Shown here in pieces: positions 2,679 through 11,971 of a stretch of 28,670 nucleotides of DNA. Where the stretch lies: the IMG/VR virus record IMGVR_UViG_3300046804_001212, positions 1 to 28,670 of that record; one strand, written 5' to 3'. The stretch comes from a virus. Position 1 is the stretch's first letter. Each line of letters starts with the position of its first letter. The notes below the pieces were generated by a model. It was not told the DNA's origin. It saw only the letters and a program-made list of their open reading frames with translations, and did no database searches. The position numbers and the translations under genes are program-made.

Positions 2679-4523
2679 ATGGGCATTCGTGAACGTATCG
2701 CCAAGGCACTGCTGCCACCGGGGACAGTAACCATTACCGAGCAGCAAGCGGCTGCTATGGCCCCACAATCCGGCACACGCGCAGAACCCCTAGATCGCGA
2801 CCCCAACCTTGCTTTTCTTCCATTTCCCCCGTCCATGCCGCTCATCCCGGCACTTATCAACGAACGCCGAGAGGACGGCAGGGCCGATCCTCGTCGTTGG
2901 GAATATCCGGTTGCGTGGAACCTTCAACTGGTCGAACAGCGCAATATTCCTTTCAGGGTATTGCGCGAGGTCGCAGATCAAGCGGACATCGTTCGCAAGT
3001 GTATTGAGGTAGTCAAGGGTGCGATCACCGGACAAGACTGGGACATTTCCGTAACCGACGATGCTATTGCACACATTGTTCGCGAGAACAATGTTGGGCA
3101 TCTTGAGGCTGCACGACTTGTGCGAGGCAACTACATCCATGACATTGCCAAGTTGAAAGACTTTTGGCGTATGCCAGACCGCATCAACGGCATCTCATTT
3201 CACGAATGGGTCGGTCTGATGTTGGAAGAAGTGTTGGTAATCGACGCACTATCTATCTTCCCCAACAAATCAGTAGACAACACCAAACTAGCATCACTAG
3301 AAATCCTTGATGGTTCCACTATCAAACCTTTGCTTGATGCCCGAGGCAATCGTCCGGTTCCCCCTCATGCCGCATATCAACAGATATTGTGGGGATTTCC
3401 CCGTGGGGAGTTCACCGCAGGATCGGATGCTGACGGCGAGTTTACTGCCGACGACCTTGTATATCTACCGAGAACACGCCGACCGTTCACTCCTTATGGG
3501 TTCAGTCCGGTTGAACGCTGCCTTGTGCTTGTTGATCTTTATATGAAGCGTTTGCACTGGTATCGCACCGAGTTCACTGATGGTGTTACACCAGATTTGT
3601 TTGTCAAATCCGATATGGAATACGGCACCAATCCACAACTTCTAAAGGCTTATGAGCAGATTTTCAATGACGAGATGGCTGGCAATCTTGAGCAGCGTCG
3701 CCGTATGCGACTTCTCCCAAGCGGGTTTGACCCAGTTATGCCACGGGTTGCCGAAACAAAGTATACGTCTGTGTTTGACGAATATTTGGTCAAGAGCATT
3801 TGTGGACACTTTGGGGTGCTGCCATCACAGATTGGTTTCACTCCGCAGTCCGGTTTGGGTGGTGCGGGCCATCAAGAGGGTGAGGCCAACTCTGCCGAAA
3901 CATTGGGTTTGCGCCCGATGATTGTGTGGGTTATTGATGTCCTCAACTATATTTCGCATCGTTTCTTGGGAATGTCCCATGATCTGACTTTCACGTTTAC
4001 CGATGGGACCGAGACAGATCAGTCACAGATGGCGAAACGCCGTCAGATGGAGTTGTTCTCTGGTCAGAAAACGTGGAACGAAGTTCGGACGGAGATGGGT
4101 CTGCCTTTGTTTGAGTTTGCTGAGGCAGACGCTCCGTTGATTGTTCAGGGACGTACTGTCATTCCGTTGGCTGCCTCGTTTGAGTCGGTTGCTATCAATG
4201 CTGATGAACAGGCCGAGGATGCCCGCCCGTCGGATGACGAGTTGTTCCCGACCGGCGAACCGAATGCGACTGCTGGTTTGATCTCAAATAATGGTGGTTC
4301 TGAGTTGCCTACGTCTGTTCAAGCACAGGAAAAGATGGAACTGGGTTTGTTTGTGAAGTGGGCGAAAAAGAATCGTGGTCGGGATTTTGAGTTCAAGTTT
4401 GTTTCTGTTGATCGTGCCAATCATTTGAATGCGTTGGTTCGTGAGGATGCGGAGGCGGCGCGAGAGTTGGCTGCTTTGTGGGCTGGTGATGTTGACCCAA
4501 AAGTGTTGGTCCAGACATCGTAA
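2679..4523 (+). CDS. Portal protein
   Basis: A 614-residue phage portal, the dodecameric ring at the packaging vertex. AGAAGGAA precedes ATG 2679. The central region has typical portal features: a stretch rich in acidic and aromatic residues around 150-190, DDLVYLPRTRR-PFTPYGFSPVE near 255-285, then the helix LVLVDLYMKRLHWYRTEF and GVTPDLFV. Residues about 340-400 include RLLPSG and the GVLPSQIGFT segment. After about residue 480 the protein leaves the core fold: an acidic disordered linker is followed by a helical C-terminal part (KWAKKNRGRDF, REDAEAARELAALWAGD). Codons 606-608 (GAC CCA AAA) form a -1 slippery site six codons before the stop, leading into the ParB-like frame. Confidence 0.93.
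   Translation: MGIRERIAKALLPPGTVTITEQQAAAMAPQSGTRAEPLDRDPNLAFLPFPPSMPLIPALINERREDGRADPRRWEYPVAWNLQLVEQRNIPFRVLREVADQADIVRKCIEVVKGAITGQDWDISVTDDAIAHIVRENNVGHLEAARLVRGNYIHDIAKLKDFWRMPDRINGISFHEWVGLMLEEVLVIDALSIFPNKSVDNTKLASLEILDGSTIKPLLDARGNRPVPPHAAYQQILWGFPRGEFTAGSDADGEFTADDLVYLPRTRRPFTPYGFSPVERCLVLVDLYMKRLHWYRTEFTDGVTPDLFVKSDMEYGTNPQLLKAYEQIFNDEMAGNLEQRRRMRLLPSGFDPVMPRVAETKYTSVFDEYLVKSICGHFGVLPSQIGFTPQSGLGGAGHQEGEANSAETLGLRPMIVWVIDVLNYISHRFLGMSHDLTFTFTDGTETDQSQMAKRRQMELFSGQKTWNEVRTEMGLPLFEFAEADAPLIVQGRTVIPLAASFESVAINADEQAEDARPSDDELFPTGEPNATAGLISNNGGSELPTSVQAQEKMELGLFVKWAKKNRGRDFEFKFVSVDRANHLNALVREDAEAARELAALWAGDVDPKVLVQTS
4496..4502 (+). promoter_or_regulatory. Putative programmed -1 frameshift site in the portal gene
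   Basis: The heptamer CCCAAAA fits X-XXY-YYZ and is in phase with portal codons (last C of GAC, then CCA, AAA). In the -1 frame a TGA ends at 4495, just before the heptamer, and the frame then stays open to 4891. Re-pairing would give Asp-Pro-Lys-Ser and continue into the ParB-like domain. A possible stimulatory stem lies at 4529-4535/4546-4552 (7 bp including one G-U), farther away than usual. The weak GGTGA at 4485-4489 could act as an internal Shine-Dalgarno stimulator. The identical heptamer is used at 11744-11750. Confidence 0.65.
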
Positions 4524-4891
4524 AGATTCGTCGCAATGTTTATGATGCGGCGTTTGCGGCTTTGGAGAAGTTGCCGGATGAGGGCGATGGGTTGATTCGT
4601 TGTCTTTGGTCGGTTACAGATCGTCCCAAGGTACAAGATGAAGAGTGGGCTGATTCTGAGTTGTGTGGGTTTACAATTGCAGATTTGGTGGCTACTCAGG
4701 ATTATTTGAAACGAGACACAGTAAAGTATCACTTAGAGGTTTTGTCCAAGATTGTTGGGGGAGAGAACGTCAACCCGAATGTGGTACTTCATAACGGCAA
4801 ATATAAGATTTATGATGGGCACCATCGCCTTATGGCGTTGATGTTGGTCGGAGCAAAACAGGCAAACTGCTGGCTTTTGGAGAGAGAATGA
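4502..4891 (+). CDS. ParB-like domain, probably expressed as a -1 frameshift extension of the portal
   Basis: This frame encodes 129 residues after the slip (Ser of AGT 4502 onward). The C-terminal half has the ParB/Srx-fold signature: a pattern of VxxYHLEVLSKI, NPNVVLHNGKYKI, then D-G-H-H-R-L-M-A-L and an alternating strand NCWLLE. The protein-like sequence extends upstream (VKIRRNVYDAAFAALEKL) past the only possible start at TTG 4562, which has no ribosome site, and no ATG occurs before the ParB core. This favours production as a fusion of 608 + 129 residues. ParB-like domains bind or hydrolyse nucleotides or act as nucleases; the activity here is unknown. The alternative is an independent gene starting at TTG 4562, or an assembly indel. 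Confidence 0.75.
   Translation, partial: SVGPDIVKIRRNVYDAAFAALEKLPDEGDGLIRCLWSVTDRPKVQDEEWADSELCGFTIADLVATQDYLKRDTVKYHLEVLSKIVGGENVNPNVVLHNGKYKIYDGHHRLMALMLVGAKQANCWLLERE
4529..4552 (+). other. Possible RNA stem downstream of the portal slippery site
   Basis: CGTCGCA (4529-4535) can pair with TGCGGCG (4546-4552), giving seven pairs including one G-U, with a 10-base loop. It begins 26 bases after the heptamer, longer than the usual 5-9 base spacer, so a stimulatory role is only tentative. Confidence 0.25.
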
Positions 4892-5151
4892 GCGCACTAA
4901 CAGGTACCGTGGTTGCAGCAACATCAGCAACAATTCTGTATGTCAATCGAACCGGGGCACCCAATACGCTTCTGATGACTACTCATGGCAACTCGGCTGA
5001 TATCTATGTTGGGTCGTCAACAGTAACCGCATCCAGCAATGGGGTGGTTCTCGCAAAATCAACCCTAACTGAAATTACTGTTCCTGCCGGTGAAACCATT
5101 TATTGTGCCGGGAACGGGACTGACACCGTGAACTGGCTGACGTTCAACTGA
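4888..5151 (+). CDS. Small beta-rich virion protein, possible head decoration protein
   Basis: An 87-residue protein starting at an ATGA overlap with the ParB-frame stop; GGAGAG inside that frame is its ribosome site. The sequence consists of short Thr/Val/Ala-rich beta strands (TLTEITVPAGETIYCAG, TDTVNWLTF) around the core IYVGSSTVT. This layout resembles small beta-sandwich domains found beside capsid genes as decoration or head-fibre proteins (family resemblance by eye only). Its position between portal and protease supports a head role. The TGA at 5149-5151 overlaps the ATG of the protease by one base. Confidence 0.6.
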   Translation: MSALTGTVVAATSATILYVNRTGAPNTLLMTTHGNSADIYVGSSTVTASSNGVVLAKSTLTEITVPAGETIYCAGNGTDTVNWLTFN

Positions 5152-6833
5152 TGTCTGACAACTATCGCCCCCCGGAAGGTGCTGCTACTGCGGCCAAACG
5201 TGCCCTTCGTTGGATTGCTGAAGGCCATGCTGGATCAGGATTTACTGATGTTGGACGCAAACGAGCCGGACAGTTGGCGGCTCGTCAATCGTTGTCCCTT
5301 GACACCGTAAAGCGAATGTATTCATACTTTTCACGACATGAAGTCGATAAGAAGGGAAAAGATTTTGACAATATGTCCAAACCTTCTCCCGGTCGTGTTG
5401 CTTGGGATGCTTGGGGTGGCGATGCCGGATTTTCTTGGGCAAAGCGTATTGTTGAGTCCGCAGGCAAGGAGAAAGCAGTGAGTTCTGAAACCCGTGTATA
5501 TCTTCCTATTCTGAAGTTTGACAAACAGGATGATGGGACGCTGCTTGTTCACGGTGTTGCTACTGATTCAACTGTTGATTCAGATGCACAGATTTGCGAT
5601 CAAGAATGGTTGAAGTCTGCTATGCCGTCTTGGTTTCGTTGGGGAAATATTCGTGAACAGCATTCCAATATTGCTGCGGGCGTTGCCGAGGAATATGAAG
5701 AACGAGATGGTCAACATTGGATTACAGCCCGTGTTGTTGATCCGTCTTCTGTCAAAAAGGTTGAGTCGCGGGTACTCAAGGGGTTTTCTATCGGGATTCA
5801 TTCACCTCGGGTAATCAAGGATTCTAAGGCCGCTGGTGGGCGTATTGTTGATGGAGAGATTGTAGAAGTTTCGCTTGTTGACCGCCCGGCTAATCCTGCT
5901 TGCACCCTTTCTCTTGCCAAAGCCATTGATTCTATGTCGCTGGTCGCCGTTGAGGAACTGGTTGAGAAGCGTGATGTGTCCACAGAGGAACGTGAACAAC
6001 TGGCCGAGCGTGGTCATGCTATGTCAGACGGATCGTACCCTATTGCAAATGTAGGCGATTTGAGAAATGCTATTCAGGCAATCGGTAGAGCCAAAAATCC
6101 TGCTAAGGTGAAAGAACACATTATTCGTCGGGCACACGCTTTGGGTGCCTCAGAGTTGATTCCCGAAGGATGGGAAGGAAAGAAAGCCATGAGCGCAGAA
6201 GAATCGTCAATGCCGCCGAAGAAAGAGGAGTCATCTGCTGCTCCCAAGGCTGTTGAGGAGTCGTCTGTTCCTCCGAAGAAGAAGCCTGCTCCGGGCGAGG
6301 AGTCTACTGCCGTCAAGTCGGATACTTGCAAGGGCTGTGGCGAACCGGCTAAGGCTTGCAAGTGCGATGAGGGCGGTTTCGACCGCAAGGCTGCGGAAGA
6401 GTCGTCGCAAAAGCCCGGTGAGGAGTCGTCACAGAAACTTGGTGAGGAGTCGTCCCGTCCCGGTGGTGTGGCTGGTGTGGCTGGTAAGGCCGATTCTTGC
6501 GATCATTGTGGCGATGCGCTTACCAAGATGAGCGACATGGTTGCAAAGATTTATGAGAAGATGTACGGTGCAGAGGAATCTGCATCAAAGTCTCAGTCAG
6601 AGGACATCGCAAAGGCCGTCAAGGATATTGAGGCGCGCGTGTCAGACATTGAGAATAAGGCGGCTAGCGCAGTTGCGCCCGTCCGCATGGCAGTCGGCAG
6701 CCCGAAGGCTGCGGCTGTAAATGCTGATGTTGCCAAGGCCAAGGAATACCGGGCCAAGGCCATGTCAACGACTGACCCTCGTCTTGCCGAGGGTTATCTA
6801 GCACTCGCTATTGAACTTGAAAAATCCCTCTGA
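5151..6833 (+). CDS. Prohead protease-scaffold fusion (XkdF-like/S78-type) with zinc-ribbon linker
   Basis: A 560-residue head maturation protein of several parts. Residues 1-100: a helical domain (KRALRWIAEGHAGSG, SLDTVKRMYSYFSRHEVD, VAWDAWGGDAGFSWA) often found fused to phage proteases. Residues about 110-255: the protease core, with His in REQHS, Ser in KGFSIG and the closing VEVSLVDRPANP, as in HK97-type/XkdF-like peptidases. Residues about 293-342: the phage module YPIANVGDLRNAIQAIGRAK. Residues about 345-445: an EESS-repeat linker. Cys pairs occur at CKGC, CKC and CDHC. The C-terminal ~100 residues are helical and probably act as the scaffold. The protease would cut scaffold and capsid during prohead maturation. 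Confidence 0.85.
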   Translation: MSDNYRPPEGAATAAKRALRWIAEGHAGSGFTDVGRKRAGQLAARQSLSLDTVKRMYSYFSRHEVDKKGKDFDNMSKPSPGRVAWDAWGGDAGFSWAKRIVESAGKEKAVSSETRVYLPILKFDKQDDGTLLVHGVATDSTVDSDAQICDQEWLKSAMPSWFRWGNIREQHSNIAAGVAEEYEERDGQHWITARVVDPSSVKKVESRVLKGFSIGIHSPRVIKDSKAAGGRIVDGEIVEVSLVDRPANPACTLSLAKAIDSMSLVAVEELVEKRDVSTEEREQLAERGHAMSDGSYPIANVGDLRNAIQAIGRAKNPAKVKEHIIRRAHALGASELIPEGWEGKKAMSAEESSMPPKKEESSAAPKAVEESSVPPKKKPAPGEESTAVKSDTCKGCGEPAKACKCDEGGFDRKAAEESSQKPGEESSQKLGEESSRPGGVAGVAGKADSCDHCGDALTKMSDMVAKIYEKMYGAEESASKSQSEDIAKAVKDIEARVSDIENKAASAVAPVRMAVGSPKAAAVNADVAKAKEYRAKAMSTTDPRLAEGYLALAIELEKSL

Positions 6834-8475: not shown

Positions 8476-8517
8476 GTGTGACCCGTCCCCAGTCCCCATC
8501 TTGGGGGCGGGTCACAC
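8476..8517 (+). terminator. Strong hairpin after the capsid gene
   Basis: A 15-bp stem with one G-U pair: GTGTGACCCGTCCCC (8476-8490) and GGGGGCGGGTCACAC (8503-8517), with a 12-base loop. It begins 12 bases after the capsid stop. No T-tract follows, so it may be an incomplete terminator or an mRNA-stabilising end that separates abundant capsid message from the connector genes. Confidence 0.75.
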
Positions 8518-8538
8518 GATGGGGAAAGGACAAACAGA

Positions 8539-8820
8539 ATGAGGTTATTGCCTCCCGATAAAGCCGTTCTGGAAACAGAAGTGCCGCGCGGTGTTGTCTA
8601 CAGAATGCAGAAAGATGGTTGCATTCATGCAGACGAACGTGATGTAAAAGCCCTACGACAAGCCGGTTATACCGCACCGTCGTTGGGTGGATTTGCCCGT
8701 GCCGATGGTTGGATATGTTCCGACTGTGGGCATCACGGCTATTTCCGCAAGTGCAAATGCGGTTCTGAGAATACCGTTCGTGGCGGCTCAGATACCCGTA
8801 CTGATACAGTTGATCTCTGA
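8539..8820 (+). CDS. Small zinc-ribbon protein
   Basis: A 93-residue protein with GGGGAAAGGA upstream of ATG 8539. Residues about 61-75 contain C-x2-C and C-x-C (CSDCGHHGYFRKCKCGSE), a probable zinc ribbon. The N-terminal half is a short mixed region with a KDGCIHADERDVKALRQAGY segment. It sits between capsid and head-tail adaptor, where many actinophages carry small conserved genes of unknown role. It could be a minor head protein; nothing shows an enzymatic function. Confidence 0.7.
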   Translation: MRLLPPDKAVLETEVPRGVVYRMQKDGCIHADERDVKALRQAGYTAPSLGGFARADGWICSDCGHHGYFRKCKCGSENTVRGGSDTRTDTVDL

Positions 8821-11417: not shown

Positions 11418-11768
11418 ATGCGAATCACTATTAGTAATGGCTGGGTAGATTTCCGTGAACCGGAAGACGTACCCGAAAAACTGCGTCGCCGTGTCACGCT
11501 CCTTGCGTCACGCGCATCCAATCTGAACATTCAAGAAGGCGACACGCCATCCAACGACGATATGCAGTTCTATATGGACTTCAACGATGCTGTTGCCATG
11601 TGTTTGATTGAGCAGTGGGGATGGGATTATCCGGTCACGCTAGAGGGCTTGCAAAGCCTTCCGGGACGAGTGTACGACGAGATCATCAAATACACGCAAG
11701 GTATGGTGATGCGCTTGCTGCCGTCGTTTGCTGTTGACACGGACCCAAAAGCCCCTACCGTGAACTAG
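11418..11768 (+). CDS. Tail assembly chaperone, short form (gpG-like)
   Basis: A 116-residue protein with AAGGATGGGG upstream of ATG 11418. It is mainly helical after an N-terminal strand (ITISNGWVDFREPEDVPEKLRRRV). Together with the -1 frame product it forms the G/GT chaperone pair that holds the tape measure during tail assembly. It lies between tail tube and tape measure genes, as expected. The slippery site lies six codons before its stop. Confidence 0.88.
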   Translation: MRITISNGWVDFREPEDVPEKLRRRVTLLASRASNLNIQEGDTPSNDDMQFYMDFNDAVAMCLIEQWGWDYPVTLEGLQSLPGRVYDEIIKYTQGMVMRLLPSFAVDTDPKAPTVN

Positions 11769-11971
11769 GACGTATAGAGAACGCTCTGAAGGGGATGAGT
11801 GATCCCCGGTTCCCGTTGCGTCCCGAGTATCGGGATTATCAGTTGGCTAGAGAGTTTGGTTGGACTAAGGCTGAAATTGATGAGCAGCCTGCGGTTTGGT
11901 TAGATTGGCTTTTGGCAATTCATTCGGTGGCTCGCCAAGCCGAAATCTCTGCTTCTTACGGCGAAACTTGA
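11418..11971 (+). CDS. Tail assembly chaperone, frameshifted long form (gpGT-like)
   Basis: Translation of 11418-11750, a one-base slip back, then 11750-11971 gives 184 residues. The T part continues Asp-Pro-Lys-Ser-Pro and reads ELGRIENALKGMSDPRF, REFGWTKAEIDEQPAVWLDW, then a helix ending in SASYGET. The pattern W-T-K-x-E-I-D-E-Q-P resembles T domains of actinophages. The -1 frame has no suitable start codon of its own upstream of the conserved part. This is the classical lambda G/GT arrangement (established); here the heptamer and the open frame are directly visible. Confidence 0.87.
11744..11750 (+). promoter_or_regulatory. Programmed -1 frameshift site of the tail chaperone gene
   Basis: CCCAAAA lies in phase as C-CCA-AAA (GAC CCA AAA). 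A TGA in the -1 frame ends at 11737, just upstream, and the zero-frame stop TAG is at 11766-11768. Downstream, CCCCT (11752-11756) could pair with AGGGG (11790-11794), or GGGGAT (11791-11796) with ATCCCC (11802-11807); these are alternative structures. Confidence 0.85.
11791..11807 (+). other. Hairpin downstream of the chaperone frameshift site
   Basis: GGGGAT (11791-11796) pairs perfectly with ATCCCC (11802-11807) around a 5-base loop, within the T coding part. The GGGG could instead pair with CCCC two bases after the slippery heptamer, giving a larger closing stem. Either could influence frameshifting. Confidence 0.4.

Follow-up and report, generated by a model that had tools for sequence, protein, structure and literature searches.

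Does the portal gene of a tailed virus encode two portal proteins of different length? The question is raised by a locus in a 28,670-nucleotide stretch of viral DNA (IMG/VR record IMGVR_UViG_3300046804_001212, positions 1 to 28,670; hereafter, the window), in which a slippery heptamer lies shortly before the stop of the portal gene and opens onto a second frame, encoding a ParB-like domain, that has no usable start of its own. The portal is the ring by which DNA passes into and out of the capsid, and such rings are generally regarded as homo-oligomers of a single protein. The features of the window that bear on the question are the following.

2679..4523, + strand: portal protein, frame 0, short form of 614 aa (PHROG 2662, E=6.3e-53)
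4493..4495, + strand: TGA, the last -1-frame stop ahead of the heptamer
4494..4503, + strand: GACCCAAAAG, an exact match to the tail-chaperone frameshift site (2 copies in the window)
4496..4502, + strand: slippery heptamer C_CCA_AAA in portal phase, followed by G; conserved in relatives
4496..4891, + strand: -1 extension, ParB/sulfiredoxin-like, 131 codons, no usable start (PHROG, AlphaFold, Foldseek, pN/pS)
4510..4566, + strand: possible stimulatory stem, weak, TCCAGA...TTTGGA with inner helices (-18.9 kcal/mol, z=-1.6)
4521..4523, + strand: TAA ending the unshifted portal
11418..11768, + strand: tail assembly chaperone, short form
11744..11750, + strand: C_CCA_AAA of the tail chaperone
11744..11971, + strand: -1 extension of the tail chaperone, 75 aa (PHROG 9001, tail assembly chaperone, E=2.7e-4)

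The portal profile PHROG 2662 covers residues 62-568 of the portal ORF, which Pfam Phage_portal scores at 31.5 bits, under its cut-off of 39.1. CCA AAA (4497-4502) are the portal codons after GAC, so that the heptamer reads C_CCA_AAA at 4496-4502; six sense codons and then TAA separate it from the portal end. The original prediction had placed CCCAAAA in portal phase six codons ahead of the stop, with a -1-frame TGA directly before it and an open frame behind, and both coordinates and phase check out: the TGA is at 4493-4495 and the frame remains open to the stop at 4889-4891. The site is thus an in-phase X_XXY_YYZ inside the overlap of two open frames, as expected of a frameshift cassette. 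In-phase CCCAAAA occurs only 3 times in the 8,836 codons of the ORFs counted in the window, and 2 of the 3 copies sit 7-9 codons before a stop. The second context is the tail assembly chaperone, whose G and GT forms are produced by -1 frameshifting in lambda and many tailed phages. The chaperone site of the window (11742-11751) consists of the same ten bases, GACCCAAAAG, as the portal site, and these are the two exact copies in 28,670 bases, against 0.10 expected. That the portal site might itself belong to a G/GT pair was considered and rejected, the true chaperone lying at 11418-11971. A wider search for tail-chaperone heptamers in relatives returned mixed, mostly unrelated matches, so this comparison is drawn within the window.

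As had been predicted, the -1 frame contains a D-G-H-H-R-L core (IYDGHHRL), and its DGHHR-type motif is invariant in 7 homologues of the domain. Matches to ParB-like PHROGs are weak (E=5e-4 to 5e-3), a Pfam search of the extension gave no match, and the homologue in locus L005 scores 17.8 bits against ParBc_2, under the cut-off of 23.6; thus, no ParB/sulfiredoxin profile match above a curated threshold was obtained from Pfam or PHROG for the window or from this homologue. The AlphaFold model of the extension, built on a 7-sequence alignment only, has a pLDDT of 85.5 and resembles sulfiredoxin, Noc/ParB and free serine kinase (best Foldseek matches: sulfiredoxin, Noc, ParB and SerK; probability 1.0, E 0.0016-0.02, TM about 0.46). 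Compared with relatives, the extension shows fewer non-synonymous than synonymous changes per site (pN/pS 0.35/0.69 to 0.37/0.74), a pattern indicating that the ParB frame of the window is under constraint, though less conserved than the portal. The ParB domain alone, used as a query against the viral contig collection, found no matches, and an alignment of the domain found 11 loci. Members of the sulfiredoxin/ParB/serine kinase superfamily have nucleotide-dependent activities. The likeliest putative role would be that of an enzyme that depends on nucleotides and travels in the head or is ejected from it, to which we would give about an even chance; DNA-end or channel binding ranks second and is a more tentative proposal. 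In other members of the family, the ParB domain sits after MuF or inside the portal tail, which marks it as a movable accessory domain. The latter arrangement, with a ParB-like domain inside the portal C-terminal tail and MuF as a separate coupled gene (L200, L215, L217, L219, L221, L223 and L228), is a second portal-ParB layout and is free of frameshifting.

Relatives were collected with a portal query (50 loci), with alignments of the portal (80 kept of 586 confirmed relatives), of MuF (80 kept of 407) and of close-subclade portals (80 kept of 107), and with one scan of bacterial genomes, which gave ten loci, including prophage-like regions of Streptomyces sp. AcH 505 and NRRL S-350. The annotated-phage relatives are Arthrobacter phages Sonali (L052) and Mufasa8 (L053). 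The MuF identity of the relatives was verified with Pfam PF04233, which has no match in the window. Five layouts were found. In the first, MuF lies in the -1 frame behind a heptamer at the junction (L008-L020, L045, L068-L070, L141, L147, L154 and L155). The second comprises portal-MuF, portal-MuF-ParB and portal-ParB genes read straight through in frame 0; an in-phase CCCAAAA marks the corresponding junction, and the -1 frame soon meets a stop (L002-L007, most of L021-L047, L052, L053, L059, L064, L145, L146, L237 and L274); here, slipping would yield a short portal. The third, in which ParB follows directly in the -1 frame, is that of the window, and no other such member was found. In the fourth, MuF is in the -1 frame behind C_CCT_TTT (L024, L284, L288, L291, L292 and L300); the same heptamer occurs in L285, L286 and L295, on contigs that break off before MuF could be seen, and this subclade has a hairpin of its own. 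The fifth comprises controls that have no heptamer, with the MuF start either overlapping the portal stop (L076-L140 and others) or at an internal ATG (L240-L257 and L283). The apparent -1 layout of L076-L140 was rejected as frameshifting: TAATG or ATGA overlaps and missing heptamers point to coupled starts, and these loci serve as negative controls. Similarly, internal starts are the best explanation of the +1 layout of L240-L257 and L283. The MuF start of these loci falls within the portal gene (GTGATGCC, with AAGG upstream in most), producing a +1-frame overlap, and a run of G5-G6 follows it in most. Across the family, the added domain is usually MuF, and ParB is a replacement or an addition.

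Several further domains were encountered near these junctions. Gene 3 of both Sonali and Mufasa8 carries a NUDIX-like domain between portal and slip site, annotated as MutT/NUDIX hydrolase in the RefSeq copy of Mufasa8, so that the predicted short form is portal-NUDIX and the long form portal-NUDIX-MuF; the short form is predicted to have about 748 residues and the C-terminal end NPKSAYPSVLEG in Sonali, and to end in FPKSTYPSLVEG in Mufasa8. A domain of ~100 residues, GSGFTDVGRKRA...SPGRVAWDAWGGDAG, forms the N-terminus (about residues 6-112) of the maturation-protease-like protein of the window (5151-6833) and is also present in the portal linker of L022, L034 and L036, between portal and slip site; it moves between structural genes. 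In the Streptomyces sp. AcH 505 prophage (L145, near 8500-8620), an intein-like C-terminal sequence (ANGIIAHN) lies within the MuF domain.

The layouts also bear on how the frame of the window is to be read. A portal tree of 63 rows (quick method, some branches long) places at least 4 changes of tag frame among the site-bearing rows. A MuF clade of 17 members keeps the -1 state stably, and the state also appeared elsewhere in the tree; the site is missing from the 20 rows of the clade sister to the -1 MuF clade, which have independent starts. All other members of the ParB subclade in which the window nests (98-99% support) read the domain in frame 0, among them the three closest relatives, L002-L004, with portals 66-74% identical and ParB fused in frame 0. 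From the heptamer to a conserved AAG codon there are 20 nt in the window versus 21-24 nt in L002-L004, which reflects either a frame flip on the window's own branch or an error. One alternative is that the frame was broken recently by mutation, or in assembly, within what is ordinarily an in-frame portal-ParB fusion, and that the heptamer truly serves as a slip site for the short portal, as in L002-L004. The spacing just given fits this account, as do the standing of the window as the only case of ParB in the -1 frame, the greater divergence of ParB than of portal in the window comparison, and the failure to find near-identical records, none of whose junctions appeared in a DNA scan that may leave such records out. 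Against it, the -1 state has proved durable in the MuF clade and has arisen elsewhere, the other main genes of the window tile without obvious breaks, the gap relative to L004 is one of 4 nt between TGG repeats and not a homopolymer indel, and the heptamer is only C3A4. We regard a recent break as fairly improbable and favor a genuine -1 extension in the window.

These comparisons modify the original prediction in several respects. The proposal that a -1 shift joins a ParB-like domain to some portal subunits gains from the family-wide conservation of the heptamer, but the arrangement is not specific to ParB, the tag being mostly MuF. Alignment of related phages had been suggested as a check on whether heptamer, frame and ParB domain are conserved together; the heptamer is conserved, the frame of the tag switches and the domain is usually another one. 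Finally, a low copy number of the tagged form may hold for the window but not as a rule for the family, since in L002-L004 ParB is in frame 0 and slipping would make the short portal.

A second alternative is that ParB is a separate protein, begun at TTG 4562 or translated by ribosomes that re-initiate past the portal stop, and that the heptamer is incidental. The TTG does exist, 39 nt past the portal stop, and many distant relatives start MuF at a codon overlapping the portal stop or at an internal ATG with AAGG upstream. It is the sole NTG start listed for the -1 frame, as originally noted, and corresponds to residue 23 of that frame; the protein-like sequence was said to reach back towards the heptamer, and K10, R13 and D17, invariant in seven homologues, indeed all lie upstream, so that a start at the TTG would remove conserved sequence. 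Moreover, relatives with their own start have no heptamer, and in all close ParB relatives the domain is fused to the portal. Under a purely mechanical start rule (any NTG) applied to non-redundant -1, +1 or separate-ORF cases, the heptamer is present in 16/16 cases without a start versus 8/76 with one (Fisher 2e-12). Separate translation of ParB is thus very unlikely, and frameshifting remains the preferred reading.

The composition of the site itself was compared in 42 non-redundant portal relatives, including Sonali, Mufasa8 and two Streptomyces prophages, in which the in-phase junction heptamer is CCCAAAA (26 members), AAAAAAA (12) or GGGAAAA (4). In all 42, the slip codons are CCA AAA, AAA AAA or GGA AAA, and the base after the heptamer is G in 41/42. 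The preceding codon is of 11 kinds, encoding 8 amino acids, and its third base always matches; leucine, for instance, is CTA or TTA before AAA, CTG before GGA and CTC before CCA. Where the same dipeptides occur elsewhere in these genes, the full heptamer is formed in 0/30, 0/46 and 0/56 instances (0/132 in total). In Sonali and Mufasa8, the sole A/T-type in-phase heptamer past the first codon, in about 1,000 codons, directly precedes MuF and is followed by CCCTCC-N5-GGAGGG and then a -1 stop. As the 42 members were selected for having a site, the exceptions matter: the site is lost in L036, which reads AACACAAAAG; no heptamer was found at the portal junction of L143 or of the distant relatives L148 and L151; and Thermoanaerobacterium THSA-485A, Brevundimonas Strzyga/Polewnik and Alicyclobacillus MMB025, all distant isolates, have no conserved site at the junction, which shows that not every portal-MuF gene carries the signal. 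Where the site is present, the codon pattern indicates that selection acts on nucleotides, not residues.

Consistent with a ribosomal signal, hairpins occur 5-9 nt past the heptamer at many sites of the family. Strong hairpins were found in 94% of the -1 MuF clade, against 5% for control positions taken from those genes, in 5/5 portal-MuF-ParB members and in 3/4 isolates, and the enrichment over all 42 sites is significant (p=1e-10). In one clade of 14 sequences sharing a 6-nt spacer and a 5-bp stem, 100% of cells are paired and two pairs have changed on both sides; the covariation score, 0.389, was reached by 0/500 shuffles. In the subclade of the window and L002-L004, and in most of the L021-L047 group, no hairpin stands out in a simple-hairpin search; the possible stem of the window begins 7 nt after the heptamer, and its z of -1.6 alone is not significant. 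That the heptamers reflect amino-acid selection (Pro-Lys, Lys-Lys or Gly-Lys) or transcriptional slippage is the least probable account, for although a short basic motif is conserved and A7 runs could slip in transcription, the slip codons are constant while the preceding residue varies and its third base matches, runs of the C3A4, G3A4 or C3T4 kind are atypical of transcriptional slippage, and hairpins at the usual spacing suit ribosomes.

Collectively, the sequence evidence makes a programmed -1 ribosomal frameshift signal in the portal gene probable, one that would yield two portal lengths. Most ribosomes would read through C_CCA_AAA and stop at 4521, giving the 614-residue portal, and a fraction would slip back one base (CCA to CCC, AAA to AAA) and add about 129 residues, so that the slipped product would be the portal with a C-terminal ParB/sulfiredoxin-fold domain. 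Because the ring-forming body is common to both forms, the ring would hold a minority of tagged subunits, and the tags would face the capsid interior or the channel. Slipping in vivo, the slip rate, ring incorporation and the role of the ParB domain are what we infer here; the portal/tag ratio is not derivable from sequence. The signal appears to go back to the ancestor of a large portal family whose usual tag is MuF, and small indels beside the site would have moved the tag between frame 0 and -1 several times while the site was kept. It is likely that a large family of actinobacterial and environmental tailed phages possesses a mixed portal ring, in which frameshifting sets a dosage of MuF or ParB-like domains that is conserved across frame flips, and that MuF has been replaced in the window by a ParB/sulfiredoxin-fold domain.

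Elements of this arrangement have precedents. As in the lambda-type G/GT pair, a -1 slip at X_XXY_YYZ a few codons before the short stop would give two forms with one N-terminus; here, however, the gene encodes the portal, which is a permanent part of the ring, and a MuF or ParB-like domain is what is added. The tau and gamma forms of dnaX arise from a frameshift into an early stop that yields the short form, and members with a frame-0 tag would do likewise, although here the gene is a phage portal gene and members differ in the frame of the tag. Major capsid frameshifts (T7 10A/10B, phage A2 and phiEco32/Privateer) produce a minority of an extended head structural protein (PMC7881722), but in the capsid shell rather than the portal and with an unrelated extension. 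MuF proteins such as SPP1 gp7 are head proteins whose genes come right after that of the portal, 1-2 copies are portal-bound, and some carry C-terminal effector domains (PMC5576092, PMC6316719); SPP1 gp7 is a separate gene and protein, whereas here frameshifting is predicted to attach the domain to some of the portal subunits. Actinophages in which one gene encodes a portal-MuF fusion (Microbacterium clusters EA3/EA5/EA8 and EB, PMC7302621; Sonali annotation) likewise combine the two in one polypeptide, but the accessible parts of these sources describe plain fusions and mention neither a slip site nor a second product. The DGHHR motif of the window extension is shared with the Tox-ParB domains of polymorphic toxins, which have a ParB fold (PMC3482391); for the extension the fold is putative, and a toxin role is not implied. 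PRFect lists MuF-like genes, with VIP2 and not portal, among its unconfirmed predictions; the word "portal" is absent from the accessible text of a 2016 recoding review; and no portal frameshift was found in open-licence papers, an earlier mention elsewhere being possible. We could thus not find a prior description of a portal made in two lengths by a slip site.

Since lineages differ in whether the extension occupies the -1 frame or frame 0, with the heptamer kept, both portal lengths appear to be wanted, and the simplest reading would be that both are needed and that the default frame matters less. The switching of frame around a fixed slip site would represent a clear natural case of selection on the product pair rather than on the default frame, and the two-length portal is directly testable in Arthrobacter phages Sonali and Mufasa8.
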